The position numbers and the translations under genes are program-made. A DNA stretch of 23,777 bases from a virus: the IMG/VR virus record IMGVR_UViG_3300020215_000367, positions 1-23,777 of that record. The stretch is one strand, 5' to 3'. A model generated the notes under the pieces. That model saw only the letters and a list, made by a program, of their open reading frames with translations, was not told the DNA's origin and did no database searches. Shown in pieces: positions 2,651 to 16,142 of the stretch; within the stretch, counting starts at the first letter, position 1; every line of letters begins with the position of its first letter.

Positions 2651-4042
2651 ATGAAAATCGAGATGAATGGAAAGGAATACACCCCGAATGAGCTCGTCGC
2701 GACGTTGGAAGCGACTTCCGGTGTGGACGCGCCTGCGCCTGCGCCTGATCGATCTGCGGATTCGATGGCTTCTGTGGAGGATTCGCCGTCGGCAGTCACG
2801 TTTCAGCCTACTGCCGGACAGCAAGCCGCCGCCGACGCCGTAGCGGCGCTGATGAGGCGCCCCGGGCCGCAGCTTGCGACGATCGTGGGCTATGCCGGCG
2901 TCGGGAAAACCACGATGCTGCGCATTTTCGGCGAGCAGTATCGCAGCCCGCGCGTAATCACGCCGACGGGCAAGGCCGCGCTCCGCGTGACTCAAGCGTC
3001 GGGATTGCCGGCGAGCACGGTTCACCGCTGGATCTACAAGCCCGAAGTTGATCCGAAGTCGGGCAAGCTGAAGTTTTCGAAGCGGCTCACGGATTTGGAG
3101 CTGCCGCCGTCGAAACTGGTGCTGATTGACGAAGCGTCGATGATCAGCGCCGACATTTGGGCCGATATCTGGCGCGTGGCGCAGGCTTACGATCTCAAGG
3201 TTGTCGCGATCGGCGACGGTTTCCAGCTTCCGCCCGTCCAGGAAAAGAACGCGCCGGCTTTTTCGCTGCTCGATCCGGCGCTGGTGCAAAAACTCAGCGG
3301 CGTGCGCGTCGAGCTCACAGAGGTTTTGCGTCAGGCGATGGATTCGCCTGTGGTGCGCGCGTCGATGCGGCTGCGCGAAGGCATGGGCGTTCGGGCGCTC
3401 GCCGAGCTGCCGCGAATCGAGCGCGACAATCTTGGGGCTATGGCGCTCGCGGCGTTCCGTGCCGGCGGCGTCATTATCAGCAACACGAACGACACGCGGT
3501 TTCGCGTAAATTATGCAATGCGCGATGCGCTTCACCCGGGGCAGTATGGGCCGCAGCCGGGCGAACCGCTGTTGATTTTGCGGAACAATTACGAATTCGG
3601 CGCCTACAACGGCGAACAACTTACGTTCGAAGGCTGGACCGTGCCGCCCGATCAGCCGATGCACGTTCACGATCGCTACACGAATGCCGAAGCTGATGTG
3701 TACTTCGGCGAGGCGAAGATCGACGGCCGAGCCGCAATTATCGCTATCGAGCAATTGCACGGCAGCACGAAAGACATCGGCGGCTACGCGCTGGCGACGG
3801 CCGGCGAGCTGTGGGCGCGGCAGCACGGATGTTACACCGAAGATGATTGCCCGACGCCGTTCGTGGAAGCGAATTTCGGCTACTGCTACACCGCGCACAA
3901 GTCGCAAGGCTCCGAATGGCCGTGCGCACTGGTCATGGTCGAGCCGCGGGTTAGGCTTGATGAGGAAGACGGCCGACGCTGGGCCTACACTGCAATCACG
4001 CGCGCGAAAACGTCGGCGGCGATCTTTTACGGGAGGATTTGA
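2651..4042 (+). CDS. SF1 DNA helicase, Dda/RecD/Pif1-like
   Basis: A 463-aa ATP-dependent helicase of superfamily 1B. After an acidic, Pro/Ala-rich N-terminus (about 1-50), motif I (Walker A) is GYAGVGKTT with K86; motif Ia is TPTGKAAL; motif II (Walker B) is LIDEAS with D160 and E161; motif III is IGDGFQLPP; the UvrD-like C-terminal motif is TAHKSQGSEW; motif VI is YTAITRAK with R451. The start ATG follows AAGGAA-type sequence at 2639-2644 with good spacing. It lies 22 nt downstream of the polymerase gene, so it probably unwinds DNA ahead of that polymerase, as Dda-like helicases do in other phages. Polarity (5'-3') is inferred from the family. Confidence 0.93.
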   Translation: MKIEMNGKEYTPNELVATLEATSGVDAPAPAPDRSADSMASVEDSPSAVTFQPTAGQQAAADAVAALMRRPGPQLATIVGYAGVGKTTMLRIFGEQYRSPRVITPTGKAALRVTQASGLPASTVHRWIYKPEVDPKSGKLKFSKRLTDLELPPSKLVLIDEASMISADIWADIWRVAQAYDLKVVAIGDGFQLPPVQEKNAPAFSLLDPALVQKLSGVRVELTEVLRQAMDSPVVRASMRLREGMGVRALAELPRIERDNLGAMALAAFRAGGVIISNTNDTRFRVNYAMRDALHPGQYGPQPGEPLLILRNNYEFGAYNGEQLTFEGWTVPPDQPMHVHDRYTNAEADVYFGEAKIDGRAAIIAIEQLHGSTKDIGGYALATAGELWARQHGCYTEDDCPTPFVEANFGYCYTAHKSQGSEWPCALVMVEPRVRLDEEDGRRWAYTAITRAKTSAAIFYGRI

Positions 4043-4371: not shown

Positions 4372-4775
4372 CCCGCGAGTCTAACCCCACGCCCCCCGGG
4401 GCGCCCGGACGGGAGGGGCGGGAGCTGCTGCCGTGTCCGTTCTGCCACAAGGCTGATGCGTACTTCGACAGGGCGGGGTTGTACGGGCTGCACTTCGTCG
4501 GGTGCGCGTGTGGCGCCCGCGGTCCTGCGCGCGACGGCTTAGCTGACGCGCGCGACGCCTGGAACACCCGCGCCGCTCCCCCACCCGCCCCCGAGGTACG
4601 GCCCACGTCAGAAATGCGGGCGGCGGTCGCCGAGACGATTCGCATGCACCAGGCGTCAGGCGTCCCGCCCGAGGGTGTCGCCGAGATGGTGTGGCGCCAG
4701 GTTGCCGGGCACGTCGCCATGCTGCTGGAGAAGCACCCGGAGGCCCTGCGGGGTGGGCCGACGGAGGGAAAATGA
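4368..4775 (+). CDS. Lar-like restriction-alleviation zinc-ribbon protein
   Basis: A 135-aa protein. Residues 20-69 match the Lar family pattern: LLPCPFC with C23 and C26, then C46 and C48 in GCACG, then an AWNTR block at 64-68, the layout of the zinc ribbon in Lar/Rac-prophage-type proteins. The family founder modifies host type I restriction so that phage DNA is cut less; many phage members are assigned by similarity only. Residues about 75-135 form an extra helical region (PTSEMRAAVAETIRMHQ and following) that is not part of the core domain. ATG 4368 overlaps the previous stop (ATGA). Ten of eleven Glu codons are GAG, matching the previous gene but not the phage core, which suggests recent acquisition. 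Confidence 0.75.
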   Translation: MTRESNPTPPGAPGREGRELLPCPFCHKADAYFDRAGLYGLHFVGCACGARGPARDGLADARDAWNTRAAPPPAPEVRPTSEMRAAVAETIRMHQASGVPPEGVAEMVWRQVAGHVAMLLEKHPEALRGGPTEGK

Positions 4776-4876
4776 ACCGCGACGATCAAGATCAGCTAAT
4801 TCTACTCATTGCGATTGCGATCATCGGGCTTGCGATGCTGGTTTTGTGGAATATGCCGCCGGAGCCTGTGCCGTGA
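4772..4876 (+). CDS. Single-pass membrane peptide, 34 aa
   Basis: ATG 4772 lies 3 nt after GGAGGG (4763-4768) and overlaps the previous stop (ATGA); its own TGA overlaps the next GTG. The product has a charged start (MNRDDQDQ), one hydrophobic segment of about 20 residues (LILLIAIAIIGLAMLVLW), and a Pro-rich tail (NMPPEPVP). This is a convincing one-helix inner-membrane peptide. It could be a small membrane effector or accessory lysis peptide. Holins normally have at least one longer transmembrane domain and charged tail, so I do not call it a holin. Confidence 0.7.
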   Translation: MNRDDQDQLILLIAIAIIGLAMLVLWNMPPEPVP

Positions 4877-5022
4877 AAAAATGTCTTAGCTGCGGTAAGG
4901 CGATCACGCGCTTTCGTCGGTGCCTTGCGTGCCGGCGAAAGCAGAAAGACCCGCGCCCGTATTGGTGGAGGAAGTTACCGAAGGCCGAACGGCAGCGCAC
5001 GCCGAAGGACGCGAAGCCGTGA
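4873..5022 (+). CDS. Small zinc-ribbon protein, 49 aa
   Basis: GTG 4873 overlaps the membrane peptide's stop (GTGA), and TGA 5020-5022 overlaps the next GTG, so this is a link in a coupled chain. Two CxxC knuckles, C4/C7 and C17/C20, are separated by nine residues in a very basic context, the look of a compact treble-clef or zinc-ribbon fold that may touch nucleic acid. The tail is Lys/Arg/Pro-rich. Such tiny zinc proteins are common in phage early regions and are mostly uncharacterised; the precise role here is unknown. Confidence 0.7.
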   Translation: MKKCLSCGKAITRFRRCLACRRKQKDPRPYWWRKLPKAERQRTPKDAKP

Positions 5023-5285
5023 AAAAGACAATCCAGGCCAAGCATGTCGATACCCTTTCCGTGCTCCGCTGCGTCAAGCGATTCGAAACGCGCAAGGACG
5101 CGCCGCGGGCGTCGCGCTGGGAAATCCACGCCGACTTTCCGGGCGCGCCGCCGAAGGTGGTTAATGCGAAGCTGCGCGCGCTCGTGCTGCGCGGGCTGCT
5201 CGCCGGCTGTAGCCTGACGCACAATTGCCGGGGCGACTTTACCGTGGCGCCGGCCGGCGACGAGGCACTACGTAGTACCCTGTAG
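5019..5285 (+). CDS. Winged-helix-like hypothetical protein, 88 aa
   Basis: GTG 5019 overlaps the upstream stop (GTGA). The sequence runs from a conserved-looking opening (KKTIQAKHVDTLSVLR) through PPKVVNAKLRALVLRGLLAGC to a short DFTVAPAGDEAL end. The pattern of helix, Gly turn, helix and beta hairpin resembles the small winged-helix proteins encoded by many phages, in which the middle helix would read DNA. No close family member is named with confidence. It is the last gene before the 141-nt non-coding region, so it ends the first operon segment. An in-frame ATG at 4920 would give a longer protein but would overlap the zinc-ribbon gene heavily. Confidence 0.7.
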   Translation: MKKTIQAKHVDTLSVLRCVKRFETRKDAPRASRWEIHADFPGAPPKVVNAKLRALVLRGLLAGCSLTHNCRGDFTVAPAGDEALRSTL

Positions 5286-5289
5286 CGCG

Positions 5290-5318
5290 TTGTGGGATAC
5301 CGTCTTACTCCCGAGAAT
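5290..5318 (+). promoter_or_regulatory. Weak sigma70-like promoter candidate
   Basis: TTGTGG (5290-5295) and GAGAAT (5313-5318) are separated by 17 nt. They match 3 of 6 and 4 of 6 consensus positions. Transcription would begin near 5325, exactly at the base of the large RNA structure that follows. The match is weak and could be chance; it is listed mainly because of that coincidence. Confidence 0.22.
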
Positions 5319-5324
5319 TACTCA

Positions 5325-5428
5325 ATTTTTCGCTTGCTCCCGTTCCCGTGCGAATGTTATTCGTCTCACTAAGAGGGCTAAATCACAGGGGTTAGCCCTG
5401 ACAAAACAACGGGAGCAAGGCGAAAAAT
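5325..5428 (+). promoter_or_regulatory. Structured 5' leader: three-way junction that sequesters a ribosome-binding site
   Basis: A left arm at 5325-5344 (ATTTTTCGCTTGCTCCCGTT) pairs with 5408-5428 over 20 base pairs with one bulged G (5419 or 5420). Inside lie two perfect hairpins: CGAAT-GTT-ATTCG at 5351-5363, and AGGGCTAA (5374-5381) with TTAGCCCT (5392-5399) around a 10-nt loop. The right arm contains GGGAG (5411-5415), AAGG (5417-5420) and the first two bases of the ATG at 5427, so closing the stem would hide the start of the downstream gene. This looks like a cis-acting translational switch or a protein-binding RNA. At DNA level the same bases are a roughly 100-bp interrupted palindrome that could also be an operator or origin. 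Folding is seen in the sequence; function is inferred. Confidence 0.7.
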
Positions 5429-5798
5429 GAAAATGAGATCAAGGCCGTTGCCGTCGTGCAAGCTTCGCGGGCGGGCGTTCATACCTACATATGCGCAAGT
5501 CGCCGCCGCGGTTGGCCGCTACTTTGTTCGAGTCGCCGACCCATTCGAAACGCTGCGCGTTAAGACGGTAGGTGAAGCCGTTGCGGTCGCGCTGGGCGCG
5601 AGATGGTCGCCGACGGTAGGTCAAATGGTGCGGCGGGCGCTGCTCGAAATGGGCTGCGAGCTCGTCACGTTCGAGCATAAGCACCTAGTCAAAAACATCC
5701 GAGCGCGGCACCACGATCGCGCCGACGCCGTGGCGCTCGCGATGAAGCTGCGCGGGCGCAAGAACGCGCCGAAGGACGCGGCCCGTGTCGAGGGCTAG
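5427..5798 (+). CDS. Hypothetical protein, 123 aa, behind a structured leader
   Basis: ATG 5427 follows AAGG with 6-nt spacing; a second in-frame ATG lies at 5433. The product is basic. It contains VGEAVAVALGARWSPTVGQMVRRALLEMGCE in its middle (positions about 49-80), which reads like helix-turn-helix material, followed by a Lys/His/Arg-rich end. Both the ribosome-binding site and the start are inside the long stem of the leader, so expression is probably controlled post-transcriptionally, perhaps by the protein itself if it binds nucleic acid. That is inference. The next gene begins 14 nt before this one ends. I do not recognise the family. Confidence 0.75.
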   Translation: MKMRSRPLPSCKLRGRAFIPTYAQVAAAVGRYFVRVADPFETLRVKTVGEAVAVALGARWSPTVGQMVRRALLEMGCELVTFEHKHLVKNIRARHHDRADAVALAMKLRGRKNAPKDAARVEG

Positions 5799-6087
5799 CC
5801 GCGTCGCCGCGCTCATGCGTGCGTGGCAGAAGTCGTTACGCGAAGCCGATCGATTCTGGGATCGCATCGTCGAAGAAATCGCAGCAAGCCGGCGTGCCGG
5901 CGATCTGCCGGCCGTCATCGCGCGCGATCTCGGCTTGCCGCGCTCGCTAGTGCGCGAAGCGCTGCGCGCGGGAGGTGAACGCGGGTTACTGGAACCGCGG
6001 CCCGTCGAGCGTTGCCCCTGCGGTCTGATTCACGATCTGTGCGAGCTCGGCGCTCGCGTCGCCGCACGTCGGAGGGCGGTCGCGTGA
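5785..6087 (+). CDS. HTH protein with possible C-terminal zinc knuckle, 100 aa
   Basis: GTG 5785 was chosen because GAAGGA (5771-5776) lies 8 nt upstream; an in-frame ATG exists at 5815. Residues about 40-70 (DLPAVIARDLGLPRSLVREAL and following) look like a helix-turn-helix with the wing-like sequence GERGLLE. C77, C79, H83 and C86 in CPCGLIHDLC could bind a metal ion. A small DNA-binding regulator is the likeliest role, and the nearby dyads at 5304-5427 are plausible targets. It overlaps the previous gene by 14 nt and its TGA overlaps the next GTG. Confidence 0.72.
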   Translation: MSRASRVAALMRAWQKSLREADRFWDRIVEEIAASRRAGDLPAVIARDLGLPRSLVREALRAGGERGLLEPRPVERCPCGLIHDLCELGARVAARRRAVA

Positions 6088-6950
6088 CGGGTCGCTCGTT
6101 TGAAGCGCTGCGGCGATACTGGTACCGGAAGGCGGGCGTTGAGGATATCGAGCCGGGCGATCTGCTAATCCACGAACGCGGATCACGCGCTGCCGACGCG
6201 CAAGATATTGCATTTGCTGGCGAAATGGCCGATGCCGCGCGGGATATCTTGCGTCATCCGGCGCTTACCCCGCGGCAGCGTGCGATATGGCGGCTGCACG
6301 TCCAAGATTCCACATACGCCGAAATCGCTAAAAAAGTAGGTTGCAGTTTTCGCGATGTTTCTGCTAGCCTTGACGCGGTTCAGGCGTTAATGCTGAAACC
6401 GACGATGGAGGAACAGACGATGGGAAAGCGAAAGGGACCCGGCCGCCCGCCGACGATGCATGTCGCTGCGGCCGACGGAATGACCGTGTGTGGGCGCAAG
6501 GCAGTTAAGGGCCGTCTGACGACGCCCGACAAGTCGAATTGCAAGGACGGATGCGCGACGGGCAACGCTGCCGCGCGCCCGGCGAAGTCGGCGAGGGCGG
6601 CGAAGCCGCCGCGAAACAAGCCGGCCGCGACGGAGGCGCCGCCCGCGCCCATGTTCGTAATTCCGCCGGAGGCGCCGGAGCTGCCGGCGTTCGTGGATCT
6701 CGAAACGTCGGTGGATCTTGCCGGCATGAACGCGCATCGCAAGATCGCCGAAATCTCGCTCAAGCCGGCGCTGACGTCCAACGACGTCGAGGATAACAAG
6801 CGCGCGTGCGATACGCTGCTCGCGATCCGCGCCTCCGAAATGAAGGTGCTGCGCGACCCGCGACGTACGGCGCCGGCCGATGACGCCGAGGTTCAGGCGA
6901 AGATCGACGCTGCGGCGAAGCCCGCCGCGCCGGCCGAGACGCCGCAGTGA
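6084..6950 (+). CDS. HTH (sigma region 4-like) protein fused to a GPGRPP basic region; possible small terminase
   Basis: GTG 6084 has GGAGGG (6071-6076) 7 nt upstream and a GTGA overlap. The 288-aa product has two parts. Residues about 60-104 (LTPRQRAIWRLHVQDSTYAEIA and on) resemble the helix-turn-helix of sigma region 4 or LuxR-type proteins. Residues 113-288 start with MGKRKGPGRPPT, an AT-hook-like basic patch, followed by an Ala/Pro-rich linker (about 165-195) and a charged helical end. Its position a few small genes before the large terminase makes a small-terminase role possible for one or both parts. A strong internal start at 6420 could make the second part separately. No database match could be tested. 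Confidence 0.72.
   Translation: MTGRSFEALRRYWYRKAGVEDIEPGDLLIHERGSRAADAQDIAFAGEMADAARDILRHPALTPRQRAIWRLHVQDSTYAEIAKKVGCSFRDVSASLDAVQALMLKPTMEEQTMGKRKGPGRPPTMHVAAADGMTVCGRKAVKGRLTTPDKSNCKDGCATGNAAARPAKSARAAKPPRNKPAATEAPPAPMFVIPPEAPELPAFVDLETSVDLAGMNAHRKIAEISLKPALTSNDVEDNKRACDTLLAIRASEMKVLRDPRRTAPADDAEVQAKIDAAAKPAAPAETPQ
6407..6422 (+). promoter_or_regulatory. Strong internal ribosome-binding site and start
   Basis: GGAGGAA (6407-6413) is followed after 6 nt by ATG at 6420-6422, in frame with the surrounding 288-aa gene. Translation from here would give a 176-aa protein beginning MGKRKGPGRPPT. This is one of the best ribosome-binding sites in the window, better than that of many outer genes, so a nested second product is plausible. 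Confidence 0.55.
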
Positions 6951-7390
6951 CCGGCGCGCCCAAGCGGGCGCGTCTGCCGGTTGCGATCCGGCCCATGAAA
7001 TCGCCGGACGATGACCCGATCGTCTACGATTCATGGGCCGGATCGCTCGCCGACGAGCTCGAAATTACCGAGGAACGCGAGAAAAAGCGTTTCAAGCGCG
7101 GTCAATTTCCCGTGCTGCGCGAGCTCGTCGCACACGGGCGCGTGCTCGTCGCAACGTCGCGGAAGGATCTAGACCGCGTCGTCGGCTGGATCTGCTACGA
7201 ACCGGCCGACGTGCTGCATTTCGTGTTCGTCAAGAAACCGTATCGTCAATTCGGCGTGGCGCGGCAGCTCATCGAAGCCGCCGGCATGCCAGACGTCGCG
7301 CGCGCGTCTCATTTCACGTCGTGGGGCTTTCCTCGCGTCGCGCGGCTATTCGAATCGCTCACGCATGACCCCACGCTAGGAGTCAAGTAA
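6947..7390 (+). CDS. GNAT-fold acetyltransferase-like protein, 147 aa
   Basis: GTG 6947 overlaps the previous stop (GTGA). The centre of the protein, about residues 80-113, has the GNAT pattern: VVGWICYE forms a beta strand, HFVFVKKPYR leads into motif A, and the Q-F-G-V-A-R turn resembles the acetyl-CoA pyrophosphate loop (R/Q-x-x-G-x-G/A) with Val in place of the second Gly. SWGFPRVARLFESL near the end fits the last helix. Small GNAT proteins sit near terminase genes in many phages, where their substrates are unknown. Acetyl transfer is inferred; the weakened loop leaves room for a non-catalytic member. Confidence 0.72.
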   Translation: MTGAPKRARLPVAIRPMKSPDDDPIVYDSWAGSLADELEITEEREKKRFKRGQFPVLRELVAHGRVLVATSRKDLDRVVGWICYEPADVLHFVFVKKPYRQFGVARQLIEAAGMPDVARASHFTSWGFPRVARLFESLTHDPTLGVK

Positions 7391-8284: not shown

Positions 8285-8493
8285 TCGCGGCGGTTGTGCT
8301 CCGGTTCCTACTCGATACGGCGCAGCCGCCGGCACCGCTCGATCTGACGTTCTACCGCGTGCCGGCACTGTGCGCGTACCCTGACGGACGAACGCGGCGC
8401 CGGCACGCGCCGTGCTGGGAAGGGTTCGAGATTCGCGTCGAGCCGCCGCCGGTTTTTGCATGCTGTCGCGATATTCACGCGCCGCCGCGGTAG
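8281..8493 (+). CDS. Hypothetical protein, 70 aa
   Basis: ATG 8281 overlaps the previous stop (ATGA). The first ten residues are hydrophobic (MIAAVVLRFLL) and the rest is Pro/Arg/Cys-rich, with cysteines near C31, C45, C61 and C62. The last 34 nt overlap the chosen start of the large terminase, which may rely on coupling with this gene. No function is recognised. Confidence 0.6.
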   Translation: MIAAVVLRFLLDTAQPPAPLDLTFYRVPALCAYPDGRTRRRHAPCWEGFEIRVEPPPVFACCRDIHAPPR

Positions 8494-10025
8494 ACCAGAC
8501 CACACGGCGCGCAGCCTGGAATCCTGACGCTATCCTTTTGCCGCCGCAGCGGGCGGTACGCGACGATCCCGCGCGCCTGCGGCTCGTGGATGGGCCGCGC
8601 CGTATCGGCAAATCGAAACTCGCGGCGGTTCTCTTACTCGACGAAGCGCTAACCACGCCGCGTGCGAAATGCCTGTTTCTTGCGCTCACGCGGGAAGACG
8701 CGCAGGACATCGTTTGGCAGGAGCTGTTAGAGCTCAACGAAGATTATGCGCTAGGCGGCGTTCCGAACGAACAGAAATTAGAGCTCGTCTTCCCGAACCG
8801 CTCGCGCGTGCGCGTCGGCGGCGCGAAAGACCGGCAGCAAGCCGAGCGGCGCCGCGGGCGCTTCTATCAGCTCGTCATCATCGACGAATGCCAGACGTTC
8901 CCGAGTCATCTTTACGATCTGGTTGAGTCGATTCTAAAGCCGTCGCTGCTCGGCAAGGGTCGGCGCGGGCGGATTATCCTCATGGGAACGCCCGCCGAGG
9001 TTCCCGGCGTCGGCTATTGGGAAGAAAAGGTAGCCGATCCGAAATGGTCGAAGCATACCTGGACGATTTACGATAACACTTGGCTCGGCACGCGCGAGGA
9101 AATCGACGAATTCTTGCGCGATATGGCCGAATCCATGGGCGGCGAAGATGACCCGCGGTTTCAGCGCGAATACTTGGGGCGCCGCGTGCCGCCGCGGAAC
9201 ATGGATCGGCCGTACATTTACGACGCCACGAAACAGCATTTCACGGCGCCGATTCTCGAAAGCGTCATCACAAAGGAATTGCGGTTCCGTCGCTGGGCGC
9301 TGCCGTGGGCGGGAATGTGGTATTTCGTTAAGGGAATCGATCTCGGCGACTCGGCATGTTCGGCGATTGCCGTGTGGGGAACCTCTGACGCGCGACCGGG
9401 CAAGATCGTTCTAGTCGAGGAATTCCTAGCGCCGCGCATGCTGCCTGATACGCTGTGGGCCAAAATCGTCGAGCGGCGCGCATTCTACGGCGCCGGTCCG
9501 CTCGACGCGGAACGCTTTGGCGTCGTTGGCGCGCAGTCTGCCGGTGTGCTCGAAATGGCAGTAGACGAAGGCGCGCTAGGCTCCATGATCGCCGAGCAAT
9601 GGCGCCAGCCGCCTTACGCACTGCCGGTCACGGCCGCAGAGAAGACCGCGATCGAGGTTCAAGCGGATTTCCTTTCGGCTGCGATGAACCGCGGCGACGT
9701 GCTGATCTCGAAATTCTCCGTCATGGCGGCGGATATGGCCGTCGCGCGCTGGGATGAAAAGAAACTGCGCGAGCAGCACAAGCGGGTCGAAGCGAAAACG
9801 CCGCACAGCGATATCATTCCCGCCGGCCGGTATGGGTTCAAGAAAATCCACGCTATCGCGACGTCGCTGCGCGCGCCGACGGCGGCGCCTACTGTCGAGC
9901 AGAAAGAGTCAACGGAGCTCGAACGCGAGCGGCGCGAAGGCGCGGAGAAAGCACGCCGCCTGATGGAAGGGCGGCCCGTCATCGGCGCGAGCCGGCGCGA
10001 AGCCGTAGACCGCTGGCGACGGTAA
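8460..10025 (+). CDS. terL: Terminase large subunit
   Basis: A 521-aa DNA-packaging motor. The ATPase half has an Arg-rich Walker A, GPRRIGKS (G45-S52), and Walker B LVIIDECQ with D142 and catalytic E143; LMGTP resembles the coupling motif. The nuclease half has KGIDLGDSA with D294 as the first metal ligand, and a later HSDIIPAGRYGFKK region consistent with the last acidic motif. It cuts concatemeric DNA and drives it into the procapsid through the portal. I chose ATG 8460; neither this site nor the in-frame GTG 8412 has a clear Shine-Dalgarno, so coupling with the overlapping 8281-8493 gene is likely. The C-terminus is highly charged (LERERREGAEKARRLMEG). Confidence 0.93.
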   Translation: MLSRYSRAAAVDQTTRRAAWNPDAILLPPQRAVRDDPARLRLVDGPRRIGKSKLAAVLLLDEALTTPRAKCLFLALTREDAQDIVWQELLELNEDYALGGVPNEQKLELVFPNRSRVRVGGAKDRQQAERRRGRFYQLVIIDECQTFPSHLYDLVESILKPSLLGKGRRGRIILMGTPAEVPGVGYWEEKVADPKWSKHTWTIYDNTWLGTREEIDEFLRDMAESMGGEDDPRFQREYLGRRVPPRNMDRPYIYDATKQHFTAPILESVITKELRFRRWALPWAGMWYFVKGIDLGDSACSAIAVWGTSDARPGKIVLVEEFLAPRMLPDTLWAKIVERRAFYGAGPLDAERFGVVGAQSAGVLEMAVDEGALGSMIAEQWRQPPYALPVTAAEKTAIEVQADFLSAAMNRGDVLISKFSVMAADMAVARWDEKKLREQHKRVEAKTPHSDIIPAGRYGFKKIHAIATSLRAPTAAPTVEQKESTELERERREGAEKARRLMEGRPVIGASRREAVDRWRR

Positions 10026-10034
10026 ATCCCCAAG

Positions 10035-10064
10035 CCGTCAACGGGTTATCCACAATGTTGACGG
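10035..10064. promoter_or_regulatory. 8-bp dyad around a DnaA box, overlapping a -35 element
   Basis: CCGTCAAC (10035-10042) and GTTGACGG (10057-10064) are perfect inverted copies separated by 14 bp. The right arm contains the -35 hexamer TTGACG of the promoter below, the classic position for an operator. The centre of the spacer is a perfect DnaA box. Confidence 0.7.
10046..10054 (+). promoter_or_regulatory. Perfect DnaA box (TTATCCACA)
   Basis: TTATCCACA equals the high-affinity DnaA box consensus of Proteobacteria. It lies 3 nt upstream of the -35 hexamer at 10058 and in the middle of the 8-bp dyad. Bound DnaA would occupy the promoter's upstream edge, so it could activate or repress it; a single box is unlikely to be a whole origin. 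Confidence 0.65.
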
Positions 10065-10087
10065 TGCGCCGCATCGTGTGCTAACGT
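10058..10087 (+). promoter_or_regulatory. Sigma70-like promoter for a short transcript
   Basis: The -35 TTGACG (5 of 6) is followed by a -10 region GTGCTAACGT; the best reading is TAACGT at 10082-10087 with an 18-nt spacer, of the TAnnnT type. The same TTGACGG(T/C)GCGCC to GTGCTA layout recurs at 13111-13141. Transcription would start near 10094. Confidence 0.6.
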
Positions 10088-10096
10088 CGCTTCTAG

Positions 10097-10117
10097 AAAG
10101 GAAGGTGCGTCATGTAA
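10097..10117 (+). promoter_or_regulatory. Shine-Dalgarno plus start-stop (ATG-TAA)
   Basis: AAAGGAAGG, 6-nt spacer, ATG, TAA. Ribosomes loading here would terminate after one codon, which in known start-stop cases slows or parks ribosomes. Whether that happens here is unknown. Confidence 0.5.
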
Positions 10118-10159
10118 CCGCAACCTCGAACAAACTTCCCGCAGCAATTAACACGTAAA

Positions 10160-10197
10160 AGAGGGCCGGCGCCGAAAGGGTCGGCCCTCTGCTTTTT
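10160..10197 (+). terminator. Strong intrinsic (rho-independent) terminator
   Basis: AGAGGGCCG (10160-10168) pairs perfectly with CGGCCCTCT (10182-10190); a G-U and a C-G pair extend the stem to 11 pairs around a 9-nt loop, followed by GCTTTTTC. This is the clearest terminator in the window. It would end both terminase read-through transcription and the short RNA, so the capsid genes may need another promoter or antitermination. Confidence 0.9.
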
Positions 10198-10224
10198 CTG
10201 GTAGTAGCGCGGCATCTTGTAGCC

Positions 10225-10500
10225 GTGGCAATCCTCATTCATGACGCCGATGCGTTGTGCGCGCTGCTAGACGAGCTGCGCGCGCGTGGCGTTTCGGGCG
10301 TCGAGCTGCAATTTAGCGGCGATACCGTCGCGGGAATGAAAATCATCGGCATGCGCCCGCCCGCGCCCGCCGTCGTGCCGGCACGCGAGGAACCGCCGCG
10401 CCCGTCACGGATTCCCGCCGCCGTTCGCGACGAGCTCGAAGCGGAGAACGCCGGCAAGAGTGAAACGAAACTGCCGCCGCCCGGCTTGGGGTATAGATAA
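10225..10500 (+). CDS. Hypothetical protein, 91 aa, upstream of portal
   Basis: GTG 10225 begins VAILIHDADALCALLDELRA; no good Shine-Dalgarno precedes it. The first 45 residues look like a compact alpha/beta unit (helix then GVELQFSGD and GMKIIGMR strands); the rest is Pro-rich and probably disordered. The stop TAA shares its last base with the portal's ATG (TAATG), so the two are likely coupled. Small proteins of this form often precede phage portals, but no role is established here. Confidence 0.72.
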   Translation: MAILIHDADALCALLDELRARGVSGVELQFSGDTVAGMKIIGMRPPAPAVVPAREEPPRPSRIPAAVRDELEAENAGKSETKLPPPGLGYR

Positions 10501-12620
10501 TGGCAAAGAAAGATGACGCCGCGCCCGATCGGAAAACCGTAGTTCTCGACGATACCGTGCCGGCGCACGAGTCGTCAATTTGGTGGACGAAAGGCGAAAA
10601 AGATATAGCGCAGGCGATGATCTTCGTCGCCGACAAGTACGCCGCAGGAATGCAGGATCGGCGCGAGCAGAGCCGGCGCTACGTTCAGGCGCATAAGGGA
10701 CAGCTACTCGCGCACTCCATGATGGGTGCCGCGCTCGCGCGCAGCGAAACCGACGACGTCACTATGTCATGGAACGTCGTGCAAGCGGGCGTCAATACCG
10801 CGCAGTCGGTCGTTACGCGGAATCGCGTGCGGGTCATGCTGCAGACGACGGGCGCGAATTACGAGCTGCAAGAAGCTGCGAAGGACGCTGAGTTGTACAT
10901 CTCGGGCGTCATCGCAGGAAATCGAGTTTACGAGGAACTAGACCCGATTTGGTTTTTCGACGGCGCTTGTCCCGGCTTGGGCGCGCTGCTAGTCGAGCCG
11001 GACAAGGAAGGGAATACGCGCATCAAGCGTGTTATTCCTGATCAGCTCGTCTACAACGAAATCGAATGGATTTCGGGCAAAGGGCGGCAGCTTTTCACTA
11101 TCGAATGGATGTCGAAGTGGGACGCCGTCATGGAGTACGCGACCGACAAGGACGGCAACATTGACGAGGAAAAGGCCGAAGCGATCAACGGCTGCACCGT
11201 CACGCACGAATTCCCGATCCCGGGCGTTCCCGATAAGCATATCACGCTGATTCCGATTTATACCGGTTGGTTCACGTCGAGCCGGCGCAATATGGAGAAG
11301 CCCGACGGCGTGCGCGTCGTCGCGGTTCCCGGCACGACGCCCGGGTGTCTGCTCGATCGGAAGGTATATCGGTGGACGCGGTTCCCGATGGCATTTTTTC
11401 GCGTCGAGCTCGCGCCCGCGGGGCTGTGGGGCGTCGGGCTTGCCGAGCGGCTGATCGGCTTTCAGTACCGAATTAACGAGCTGAACTACTATATCGAGGA
11501 AGCCGCGCGGCTCGGCAGCACGGGCAAGTGGTTTTACGATATCGGCTCGAACGTGAATCCCGCCGACTTGAATAACGAGTATGGCGGCGCGGTTCCGTAC
11601 AGCGGCACAGAGCCGAAATTCGTCAACCTCGACGGGATTCCGCGTGATCTACTCGCCGAGCGCGATACCACCTACAAACAGGCGCTACGCGAAATCGGCC
11701 TTTCGGAATGGACCGTCGCGGGCGTGCAGCCTGACAATATCGAGTCGGGCGAGGGATTACAGCAATTGCGGGAACAGGAGCAAGGGCGTGCTGTGCCGGC
11801 CGGGCAGCAATGGGAAGCGGCACATACCGATCTCGCAGAATGTATCATCATGGCGGGGCTCGACGGTTACGAGCTGAATAAATCGCTCGCCGTCAGCGTG
11901 CATGACACCGATTGGGATTCGATCGAAAAAATCGAATTCGCGTCGATTGCGAAGCTGCTGCAGGACCCGGATACCTGGCAGGTTCGGCCCTATCCGACGA
12001 GCATTCTTCCGGCGTCGCCGACGGGCCGATTCGAAAAGCTGCGCGAATGGCGCAAGGACGGCACGATCGATCAAGCTACGTTCGAAGCGCTCTCCGAGAA
12101 TCCCGATTTGCACAAGGAAGGCTCGCTGATCCTCGCCGGCATCAAGGCCGTGCGCTGGCAGATTCGCCAGATCGTGCGGAAAGGCGTCGAGGGTTACGAG
12201 CCGCCCGATATCGCGATGCCGCTCGAATTCGGAATGCGGCTCGCGCACCAGACGTATCTCAAAGGCCTTCGCGGCGGCATGCCGGAGGAAAAACTGTCGC
12301 TGCTCCTGACCTGGATCGACGACGCGCGCGAGCTCATGAAGGCGCGCAGCGCGGGCGCACGGGCGGGCGCTGCCGAGGTTCCAGGAGCAACGGCGCCGCC
12401 GGCTGTGGCCATCGACCCGGCGACGGGCCAGCCGGTTGCCGCGGGCGCTGCGGCGCAGCCTGGCACGGTGGGCGCGCCGGCCGCGGGCGCTGACCCCATG
12501 GCCGCGCTCGCTGCGGCTGCAGGAGCGCCTGCCGACCCTGCGGCGATGGCAGCGGCCGGCGACGACCCGAACGCGGTTCCTGGCGCAGCCGACGCGCTCG
12601 CAGGCGCCGCAGGATTGTAG
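10500..12620 (+). CDS. Portal protein
   Basis: A 706-aa head-to-tail connector that forms the ring through which DNA passes. The N-terminus is charged. The core has portal-type features: WWTKGEKDIAQA, the SWNVVQAGVNTAQSVV stretch, EELDPIWFFDGACPGLGALLVEP, IKRVIPDQLVYNE, and the long helix YRINELNYYIEEAARLGSTG expected of the portal stem and crown. Its length and place after the terminase suit a podovirus-type portal. The last 90 residues (about 617-706) are an Ala/Gly/Pro-rich low-complexity tail. The ATG overlaps the upstream stop (TAATG). Two perfect GC-rich inverted repeats follow the gene. Confidence 0.88.
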   Translation: MAKKDDAAPDRKTVVLDDTVPAHESSIWWTKGEKDIAQAMIFVADKYAAGMQDRREQSRRYVQAHKGQLLAHSMMGAALARSETDDVTMSWNVVQAGVNTAQSVVTRNRVRVMLQTTGANYELQEAAKDAELYISGVIAGNRVYEELDPIWFFDGACPGLGALLVEPDKEGNTRIKRVIPDQLVYNEIEWISGKGRQLFTIEWMSKWDAVMEYATDKDGNIDEEKAEAINGCTVTHEFPIPGVPDKHITLIPIYTGWFTSSRRNMEKPDGVRVVAVPGTTPGCLLDRKVYRWTRFPMAFFRVELAPAGLWGVGLAERLIGFQYRINELNYYIEEAARLGSTGKWFYDIGSNVNPADLNNEYGGAVPYSGTEPKFVNLDGIPRDLLAERDTTYKQALREIGLSEWTVAGVQPDNIESGEGLQQLREQEQGRAVPAGQQWEAAHTDLAECIIMAGLDGYELNKSLAVSVHDTDWDSIEKIEFASIAKLLQDPDTWQVRPYPTSILPASPTGRFEKLREWRKDGTIDQATFEALSENPDLHKEGSLILAGIKAVRWQIRQIVRKGVEGYEPPDIAMPLEFGMRLAHQTYLKGLRGGMPEEKLSLLLTWIDDARELMKARSAGARAGAAEVPGATAPPAVAIDPATGQPVAAGAAAQPGTVGAPAAGADPMAALAAAAGAPADPAAMAAAGDDPNAVPGAADALAGAAGL

Positions 12621-12625
12621 GCGCA

Positions 12626-12669
12626 GCCGCCCGGCGGGTGTGGGCTGGTGAGGCGGCCCGCCGGGCGGC
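12626..12669. repeat. Perfect 13-bp inverted repeat after the portal gene
   Basis: GCCGCCCGGCGGG (12626-12638) and CCCGCCGGGCGGC (12657-12669) are exact inverted copies with an 18-nt loop, beginning 5 nt after the portal stop. The stem would be very stable in RNA. No U-run follows, so it is more likely an mRNA-processing, pausing or stabilising hairpin than a complete terminator. Confidence 0.75.
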
Positions 12670-12689
12670 GAGGCCTTAAGTAAGGGCGC

Positions 12690-12760
12690 CGGCCGCGCTG
12701 TCAATGCTGCAATGAGACTTTAGAAATTTTACCGGCGCGGCCGCAACTCGCTGCGCCGGT
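12690..12760 (+). promoter_or_regulatory. Two mutually exclusive hairpins (attenuator-like)
   Basis: ACCGGCGC (12731-12738) pairs with GCGCCGGT (12753-12760), extended by three inner pairs (one G-U), and is followed by only a short T-run. Its left arm can instead pair with CGGCCGCGC (12690-12698) upstream over 9-11 pairs. The two folds exclude each other, as in attenuators. High GC content makes chance pairing easier, so this is tentative. Confidence 0.4.
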
Positions 12761-12847
12761 TTGCGTCGTCAGCAAGCATAACGCGGAATTTCGTAAGAGT
12801 AGCGCGCGGTTAGGCGCGGCTGGTGATCGCATGCACCGGCAAAACTC

Positions 12848-12882
12848 ATCGGAGCGCCATATAATGTAAAGGGCGCTCCGAT
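12848..12882. promoter_or_regulatory. Operator-like dyad enclosing a perfect TATAAT
   Basis: ATCGGAGCGCC (12848-12858) and GGCGCTCCGAT (12872-12882) are perfect 11-bp inverted copies. The 13-bp spacer holds TATAAT (12860-12865) on the + strand. No -35 hexamer lies at the right distance upstream. The arrangement suggests a -10 element covered by a dimeric regulator, or an activator-dependent promoter. As RNA it would also form a hairpin. Confidence 0.55.
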
Positions 12883-12915
12883 AGACGGGCGCTGTCGCGT
12901 GAGATCCGTTTCCTG

Positions 12916-12924
12916 TGGTATGCT
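12916..12924 (+). promoter_or_regulatory. Extended -10 promoter for a leaderless gene
   Basis: TGG-TATGCT is an extended -10 element (TGn plus TATGCT, 4 of 6). Six nucleotides separate it from ATG 12931, so transcription would start at or beside the start codon. No -35 hexamer or Shine-Dalgarno is visible. Confidence 0.45.
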
Positions 12925-12930
12925 GCCGCG

Positions 12931-13104
12931 ATGGCCGAAGCCGTGAACGTTCCGCCGCGCGCGTGCTGCGTAGCGTGTGGCGCGCAGCCGCAGCTACTTT
13001 ACTGGTTGCTGTCGCCGGCATGGCCCGTGCCGGCCGTGACGCAGCTTTGCGCATCGTGCTACGCGAAGGCGCGCAGCGCCCGGCCGCGCGTGGGGCATGC
13101 GTGA
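12931..13104 (+). CDS. Small zinc-ribbon protein, 57 aa, probably leaderless
   Basis: ATG 12931 has no Shine-Dalgarno but sits one promoter length after an extended -10 element. The 57-aa product has two cysteine pairs, C13/C16 (CCVACG) and C40/C43 (LCASCY), with an aromatic stretch LLYWLLSPAW between, the look of a compact zinc ribbon; the tail is basic (KARSARPRVGHA). The gene lies in the head module but nothing ties it to virion assembly; a regulator or anti-host peptide is as likely. It is distinct from a different-frame overlapping ORF at 12915-13172, which lacks a plausible start context. Confidence 0.62.
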   Translation: MAEAVNVPPRACCVACGAQPQLLYWLLSPAWPVPAVTQLCASCYAKARSARPRVGHA

Positions 13105-13110
13105 TTCGTG

Positions 13111-13141
13111 TTGACGGCGCGCCCGTGAGCCGTGCTACACT
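13111..13141 (+). promoter_or_regulatory. Sigma70-like promoter for a leaderless gene
   Basis: TTGACG (13111-13116, 5 of 6) and TACACT (13136-13141, 4 of 6) have a 19-nt spacer, rather long. Six nucleotides later comes ATG 13148, where transcription should start. The sequence resembles the 10058-10087 promoter: TTGACGG(T/C)GCGCC near -35 and GTGCTA at -10. Confidence 0.55.
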
Positions 13142-13147
13142 GCGCGG

Positions 13148-14787: not shown

Positions 14788-16032
14788 ATGCCTCCTGGAG
14801 TGACAGAGTCAAATATCGCGGATTGGCTTGAGCGGAATTATCAGCCGCCCAAGCTGGGAAATACGGCCTTCAAGGATGCTCCGCTCACGGCGTGGCTTCC
14901 TCATGACGAGAATGCCGGCGGCGAAGTCGTGGTGCTCCGCTGGCGGTACGGAATGAGTCAGGGCGTCGGCGCGACCTACACGCAAGCGAAGGCGCGCGCA
15001 GATCTGTCCGGACTCAAGCCGGCGAAGGTTCACGTTGATTACGAGCCGTTCTATTCCGTCGCGACGGTGGAGAACCTCGCGATCGAGCGGGCGGCCGGCG
15101 GAAATCTGTCGGCGACGAACGTGCTGCAGCGGTCGATCAATGACGCCATGGAGGCGCACGGCGATCACCTGGAGACGTTCCTTTTCTCGGACGGCTGGCC
15201 GGCGCTGGGCCAGATCGGCGCGATCAGCGGCTCGACGATCACGCTGAAGGACGGAAGCGATATCGAGAAATGGGAAGTCGATCTGGAAATCGTGCTCGCC
15301 GAGAACCGCACGACGGGCAACCTCCGCAACGGAGGCGCGTCCCTCGTCGTTTCGAAGGTCGATCGCGATACCAACGTCATTACGTTTACGGCTGGCGTCG
15401 TCGCCACGATCGCCGCTGCGGCCGTGAATGATTTCTGTTTCATCAAGTCGACCCGAAATGACGACGCTTCCCGCGCCTGCCTGATCGGGATTCTCGGCTA
15501 CATTCCCGAGTCGGTCGCGTCCAACGACGCTTTCGGCGATACGTCCTTCAATCGTTCCGTCGATCCGTTCCGGCTCGCCGGGGCGCGCCTCAAGATTTCG
15601 GCCGGCACGTCCACGACGCAGGGTCTGATCGATTTCTTCGTGCGCTGCGCGAAGTACAAGATCAAGCCCGATGCGCTGTGGGTGTCGTTCGAGCGCTGGG
15701 GCGATCTCATCAAGGAACAGGGTTCGAACGTTCGATACGTCGATATCGAAAACAAGAAGTACGGTATCACGATCACGGGCGTTCGCCTGTTTACTCCCAA
15801 GGGCGAGGTTCCCGTCATCGCGTCGAGCAAATGCCCCAACAAGTACGTTTGGGGCCTGACGCGCAAGTCGTGGAAGCTCTTTTCCGTCAACGGGCCGCTG
15901 ATTCGTCCGGCGACCCGCTATCAGAAGGCGCTCGATTCGAGCTCCGGCGATAGCGTCGAGCTGCGGTATCGCAGCTTTGCGCAGCTCGGATGTCTCGAAC
16001 CGCACCAGAACGCGATCGGGTATTTCGAGTAA
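14788..16032 (+). CDS. Major capsid protein
   Basis: A 414-aa protein after the scaffold gene, with the size and mixed alpha/beta pattern of an HK97-fold capsid subunit. The N-terminal arm (about 1-60) carries IADWLERNYQPPKLGNTAF; the middle has LSATNVLQRSINDAMEAHGDHLE, a plausible spine-helix region; the second half has DPFRLAGARLKISAGTSTTQ and LIDFFVRCAKYKIKPDALWV; the end is ELRYRSFAQLGCLEPHQNA. Assigned from context, length and shape rather than a signature motif. ATG 14788 has GGGGAG 10 nt upstream within a hairpin. A perfect 12-bp inverted repeat follows. Confidence 0.85.
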   Translation: MPPGVTESNIADWLERNYQPPKLGNTAFKDAPLTAWLPHDENAGGEVVVLRWRYGMSQGVGATYTQAKARADLSGLKPAKVHVDYEPFYSVATVENLAIERAAGGNLSATNVLQRSINDAMEAHGDHLETFLFSDGWPALGQIGAISGSTITLKDGSDIEKWEVDLEIVLAENRTTGNLRNGGASLVVSKVDRDTNVITFTAGVVATIAAAAVNDFCFIKSTRNDDASRACLIGILGYIPESVASNDAFGDTSFNRSVDPFRLAGARLKISAGTSTTQGLIDFFVRCAKYKIKPDALWVSFERWGDLIKEQGSNVRYVDIENKKYGITITGVRLFTPKGEVPVIASSKCPNKYVWGLTRKSWKLFSVNGPLIRPATRYQKALDSSSGDSVELRYRSFAQLGCLEPHQNAIGYFE

Positions 16033-16047
16033 TTCGATTTCGCATCA

Positions 16048-16094
16048 GGGTCCGGCCCGGCTGCAGCGACAAGCGAGCCTGACGGGCCGGACCC
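16048..16094. repeat. Perfect 12-bp inverted repeat after the capsid gene
   Basis: GGGTCCGGCCCG (16048-16059) and CGGGCCGGACCC (16083-16094) are exact inverted copies with a 23-nt loop that can form a small inner hairpin (GCTGCAGC). No U-run follows. It probably reduces read-through or protects the abundant capsid mRNA, so that downstream head genes are made in smaller amounts. Confidence 0.75.
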
Positions 16095-16142
16095 GGTGCG
16101 AGCCTTCGAATTTTCGCCAACCTCTGACGGAAGGAATCGAAG

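Follow-up and report, generated by a model that had tools for sequence, protein, structure and literature searches.

Gene content of the window

The DNA analysed here, which we refer to as the window, is a 23,777-base IMG/VR virus record that represents a fragment of a high-GC tailed phage, and nearly all of its likely genes lie on the + strand. The replication genes come first, with a DNA polymerase encoded by two frames (210-1286 and 1279-2628) followed by a Dda-like helicase (2651-4042). The two overlapping frames into which this DNA polymerase A region (210-2628) is split match adjoining stretches of a single PHROG profile (558-800 and 804-1231). A packaging and structural block comes after the replication genes and includes terminase (approximately 8412-10025), a portal-like protein (10500-12620) and a likely capsid gene (14788-16032), the last of which has no profile match and was assigned on the basis of its position and of the relatives described below.

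The element under study sits between these two blocks, in a 141-nt noncoding leader or intergenic region on the + strand (5286-5426) that separates gene 4920/5019-5285 from gene 5427 and lies directly 5' of the latter. Gene 5427 (5427-5798, + strand) codes for a protein of 123 amino acids and heads a series of overlapping genes that runs to terminase. The protein had no match in Pfam or PHROG. Its structural model, which is of low confidence (pLDDT 59), is helical with an HTH/winged-helix-like order of elements, and at this level of confidence it matched none of the known folds.

A three-way junction over the start of gene 5427

Folding of the leader gave the closing stem described in the first-pass annotation, with 20 bp and one bulge. 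Its left (5') arm spans 5325-5344 and its right (3') arm 5408-5428, all 20 pairs are Watson-Crick and the single bulged G is on the 3' side (position 5419 in the MFE structure); there are a further 4 bp past an internal loop, and the duplex energy of the closing helix is -29.1 kcal/mol. The stem encloses two hairpins, giving a three-way junction. Both hairpins had been called perfect, which is correct for inner hairpin 2 (5374-5399), where eight Watson-Crick pairs (5374-5381/5392-5399) close a 10-nt loop, but not for inner hairpin 1 (5350-5364), which has five Watson-Crick pairs and one closing G-U pair (5350-5355/5359-5364) around the 3-nt loop GUU. The 5344-5352 strand may also pair with loop 3 (CCC/GGG), with a duplex energy of -7.8 kcal/mol.

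It can be seen that the right arm carries GGGAG (5411-5415), the Shine-Dalgarno-like AAGG (5417-5420), which is 6 nt 5' of AUG 5427, and A5427 and U5428 of the start codon itself. As had been claimed, these are mostly paired positions, the probability of being unpaired falling below 0.01 for GGGAG, at 0.2-0.3 for AAGG, which is beside the bulge, and at 0.03 and 0.04 for the A and the U of the AUG. The leader is richer in AT than its surroundings, and no intrinsic terminator (a GC-rich hairpin followed by a T run) was called at it.

The segment 5325-5428 has an MFE of -43.1 kcal/mol (z -5.6), which was equalled by none of 200 shuffles, and its best stem score is 43, compared with 17.9 on average and 33 at most over 3000 shuffles of 5286-5450 (Gumbel p approximately 2e-6, uncorrected for the choice of region). 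The view that such a structure is very unlikely to form by chance therefore holds, and we conclude that the closing stem and inner hairpins over the start of gene 5427 are a real structure, far beyond chance. RNA from the minus strand of the element folds equally well (-42.0 kcal/mol), and so the fold by itself is no proof of a role as RNA.

The leader had also been thought to stand apart from the other junctions of the window, which is not the case. There are further intergenic gaps at 10026-10224, 12621-13147 and 16033-16142, and folds at 6983-7046 and 16039-16102 are comparably or more improbable; an energy scan of the window placed the segments 6945-7048 (z approximately -10) and 16025-16128 (z -6.5) above the leader element. 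The structure at 6983-7046 is a perfect 17-bp stem that lies within the initial codons of the GNAT-like gene 6947, and no other fold in the window gives as strong a signal (z approximately -10). The one at 16039-16102 (z between -5 and -6.5) is a 20-bp stem with one bulge in the gap that separates gene 16143 from the capsid gene, where a 107-nt fold reaches -55.7 kcal/mol (z -5.2).

Cost of opening the start codon

Opening the region from -13 to +2 of AUG 5427 costs 18.0 kcal/mol, compared with a median of 6.6 kcal/mol for starts of the window. No other start that was tested in the window (a few were set roughly) costs as much, and this one ranks 8th of 710 Shine-Dalgarno-preceded starts in gathered phage loci, or approximately the top 1%. 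Random positions in the GC-rich window have a 95th percentile of 16.5 and a 99th of 20.3 kcal/mol, so that 18.0 kcal/mol is not extreme when set against random positions; it is extreme for a start. A strongly sequestered start in another phage locus (L109) was discarded, as it looks like a terminator beside a doubtful start.

With the 5' end of the RNA placed in silico at 5286-5325, opening of AUG 5427 costs 17.5-19.6 kcal/mol, whereas with the 5' end at or after 5344 it costs only 3.3-5.6 kcal/mol. The burial of this start that had been proposed from the letters is therefore borne out, and it vanishes without the left arm: computation places both the Shine-Dalgarno sequence and the AUG within the fold, and relieves them once that arm is absent. 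We conclude that, on full-length RNA, this strongly structured leader very probably keeps ribosomes from initiating at gene 5427.

Relatives of the phage

Alignment searches of viral collections with portal, terminase and capsid found only two near relatives among the matches listed, L096 (capsid identity 78%) and L097 (67%). L096 encodes an orthologue of the gene 5427 protein with 45-46% identity, which was the sole orthologue found when this protein was searched in phages, viral contigs and genomes; the contig of L097 starts inside the tail of its gene 5427 orthologue. The preceding frame in L096 stops 3 nt 5' of the assumed start of the orthologue, which leaves no leader gap, and around that start the fold is not unusual (z 0.2) and opening costs 5.0-7.5 kcal/mol. 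No DNA homologues of the leader were found in phage and plasmid records, and the exact right-arm pattern (a 16-mer) had 13 unrelated matches in viral contigs, none with a left arm. From these comparisons the leader is specific to this phage among those found and, since L096 carries the nearest orthologue and has no leader, it is not conserved across the phage group. Near its contig end L096 has a cluster of palindromic GTCACG/CGTGAC repeats (41-101) with a strong fold of its own (z -8.5).

Interpretation of the leader

Our preferred reading, to which we give a probability of roughly 0.42, is that the element acts as a static, cis-acting hairpin that sequesters the ribosome binding site (RBS) and would silence read-through mRNA until a shorter transcript frees the site. 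On a transcript reading through from upstream, the left arm would be made first and would pair with the RBS of gene 5427 as soon as this emerges, leaving the gene that heads the late series untranslated; as the genes after 5427 overlap, coupled genes 3' of it may be dampened too. The RBS is freed in silico when the left arm is missing. The simplest route to expression would be an RNA with its 5' end beyond that arm, arising by initiation or processing inside the loop (approximately 5345-5407). A start of transcription within the stem, which the first-pass annotation had counted against its own proposal, is here the most likely way in which gene 5427 is switched on. We infer that read-through and short transcripts both exist and that silencing of the former is the biological purpose of the element. 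The placing of the element at the junction of the replication genes and the syntenic late block is in favour of such a lock. Against it, a search of 4700-6300 for promoters of the sigma-70-like type found none, and whereas a phage-promoter motif would be expected to recur, no part of the leader has a second copy in the window. The lack of the leader in L096 and the equally good fold of the minus strand also count against this reading.

There is a precedent for this arrangement in the T4 genes e, soc, 49 and I-TevI, where the long transcripts made early are silent and translatable RNA comes from late promoters that lie in the 5' strand of the structure; for e, the RBS-sequestering hairpin represses approximately 100-fold (PMC3014915). 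As in those genes, the Shine-Dalgarno sequence and/or the AUG lies within a stable helix of a phage mRNA, the RBS becomes exposed once the 5' arm is gone (here in silico), and a role in early/late timing is plausible. Unlike the T4 hairpins, the closing stem here is 20 bp long and encloses two hairpins, and the phage is an unrelated one in which no late promoter was recognised. By its anatomy, the leader would belong to a known kind of phage regulatory device.

Other explanations for the element have to be weighed against this lock. Host RNase III might cut the 20-bp helix along with the stems at 6983-7046 and 16039-16102, punctuating the polycistronic mRNA and freeing or trimming the RBS. There are indeed three long stems along the same gene run, two of which are 20 bp with one bulge, and long stems punctuate phage polycistronic RNA in T7, where the pre-mRNA is cut at sites such as R1.1 (PMC8708148). 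Relief of an RBS occluded inside a long double-stranded region is likewise known for E. coli adhE and lambda cIII (cited in PMC5371410). However, 20 bp is slightly below the 22-nt minimum criterion of PMC5371410, which makes the length borderline for RNase III, and a staggered cut in mid-stem would strike the right arm at approximately 5416-5420, within AAGG, so that in contrast to adhE and cIII the site would be damaged and not freed; differing from the T7 sites, the predicted stem at 6983-7046 is within coding sequence. We regard processing by RNase III as unlikely. A regulated switch, whose three-way junction would become more stable or open up on binding a metabolite or a protein of the phage or its host (for example the small product of gene 5427, which may bind DNA and would then repress its own synthesis), would account for the two inner hairpins and the possible 5344-5352/loop 3 pairing, which exceed what a plain lock needs. 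The leader has no family match in Rfam at gathering or relaxed thresholds (a chance match to mir-4436 had an E of 4.8) and no homologous leader in the collections searched, nor is there one in L096, and the riboswitch or protein-binding RNA that had been suggested is accordingly unsupported. The stability of the closing helix, moreover, is very high for a structure that a ligand would have to open reversibly and suits a fixed lock better, and a ligand-free insulator explains the anatomy of the leader with fewer assumptions; we consider such a switch quite improbable. Its more specific form, an undescribed phage RNA switch whose junction and possible pseudoknot sense a phage or host factor and release the first RBS of the late operon, we hold to be very improbable. 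Least probable by our estimate, at the level of a long shot, is translational coupling, in which ribosomes on an upstream frame would traverse the leader and open the stem. A TTG-started frame of 46 codons (5290-5430) is open across the whole leader and ends in a classic ATGA overlap, its UGA stop overlapping AUG 5427 (AUGA), but an open frame this long is not unusual as a chance event, no Shine-Dalgarno-like sequence was seen by eye 5' of the TTG, the codon score is negative, and its GC by codon position is flat (0.51/0.49/0.47, compared with approximately 0.66/0.48/0.75 in genes). As GC is approximately 50% at all codon positions in each frame and no leader frame has a coding signal, we rejected 5290-5430 as a gene; ribosomes are not expected to traverse and open the stem of a noncoding leader.

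The element could also be an inverted repeat that acts at the level of DNA (an operator, a replication or recombination site, or the remnant of a miniature mobile element) and overlaps the RBS by chance. Both strands fold equally, the leader is AT-richer than its surroundings, it is missing from the orthologous place in L096, as expected of an insertion, and the core of its arm is common to Pseudomonas REP doublets, which made up most of what a genome scan with the closing-stem core returned. Like the Pseudomonas REPINs and REP doublets (PMC3116915, PMC3733652), the leader carries CTTGCTCCCG in two inverted arms that flank inner hairpins. It differs from them in being a single copy whose outer arms (CTCAATTTTTCG/TTCATTTTTCGC, compared with GTGGCGAGGGAG in REP) have neither a GTGG, GTRG or GTAG head nor a within-arm palindrome, and outside the searched core the similarity is weak (p 0.03-0.07). 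The outer arm together with the core occurs in just 2 of 398 Pseudomonadota genomes, once in each, so that the arm is repeated neither in these genomes nor in the window. With head, within-arm palindrome and multiple copies all missing, we rejected an identity as a REPIN or REP doublet. A target-site duplication was not seen by eye, the viral contigs with the right-arm 16-mer all lack the left arm, and a random insertion would not be required to end at a start codon and hold a Shine-Dalgarno sequence in its arm. A repeat of this kind therefore seems to us a rather poor prospect, a little below RNase III processing and somewhat above the regulated switch.

If the leader acts as the RBS lock that we prefer, a poorly sampled phage group would hide a start codon on read-through RNA in the manner of T4, timing late genes without a ligand. 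That the nearest relative found keeps the gene 5427 orthologue and not the leader would also suggest that RBS locks can be gained and lost among related phages.

Other features of the intergenic gaps

The gap after the terminase gene has, at 10035-10064, an 8-bp inverted repeat (CCGTCAAC/GTTGACGG) whose loop contains a perfect DnaA box, TTATCCACA (10046-10054); when the window was shuffled 100 times, a DnaA box occurred anywhere in only 5 of the shuffles. Further along, still 3' of terminase, the hairpin GAGGGCCGG/TCGGCCCTC followed by TGCTTTTT (10160-10199) is terminator-like. Within the 527-nt gap after the portal gene, a 10-bp inverted repeat (TCGGAGCGCC/GGCGCTCCGA; 12849-12881) has a TATAAT (12860-12865) in its loop, an arrangement that has the look of an operator over a promoter.
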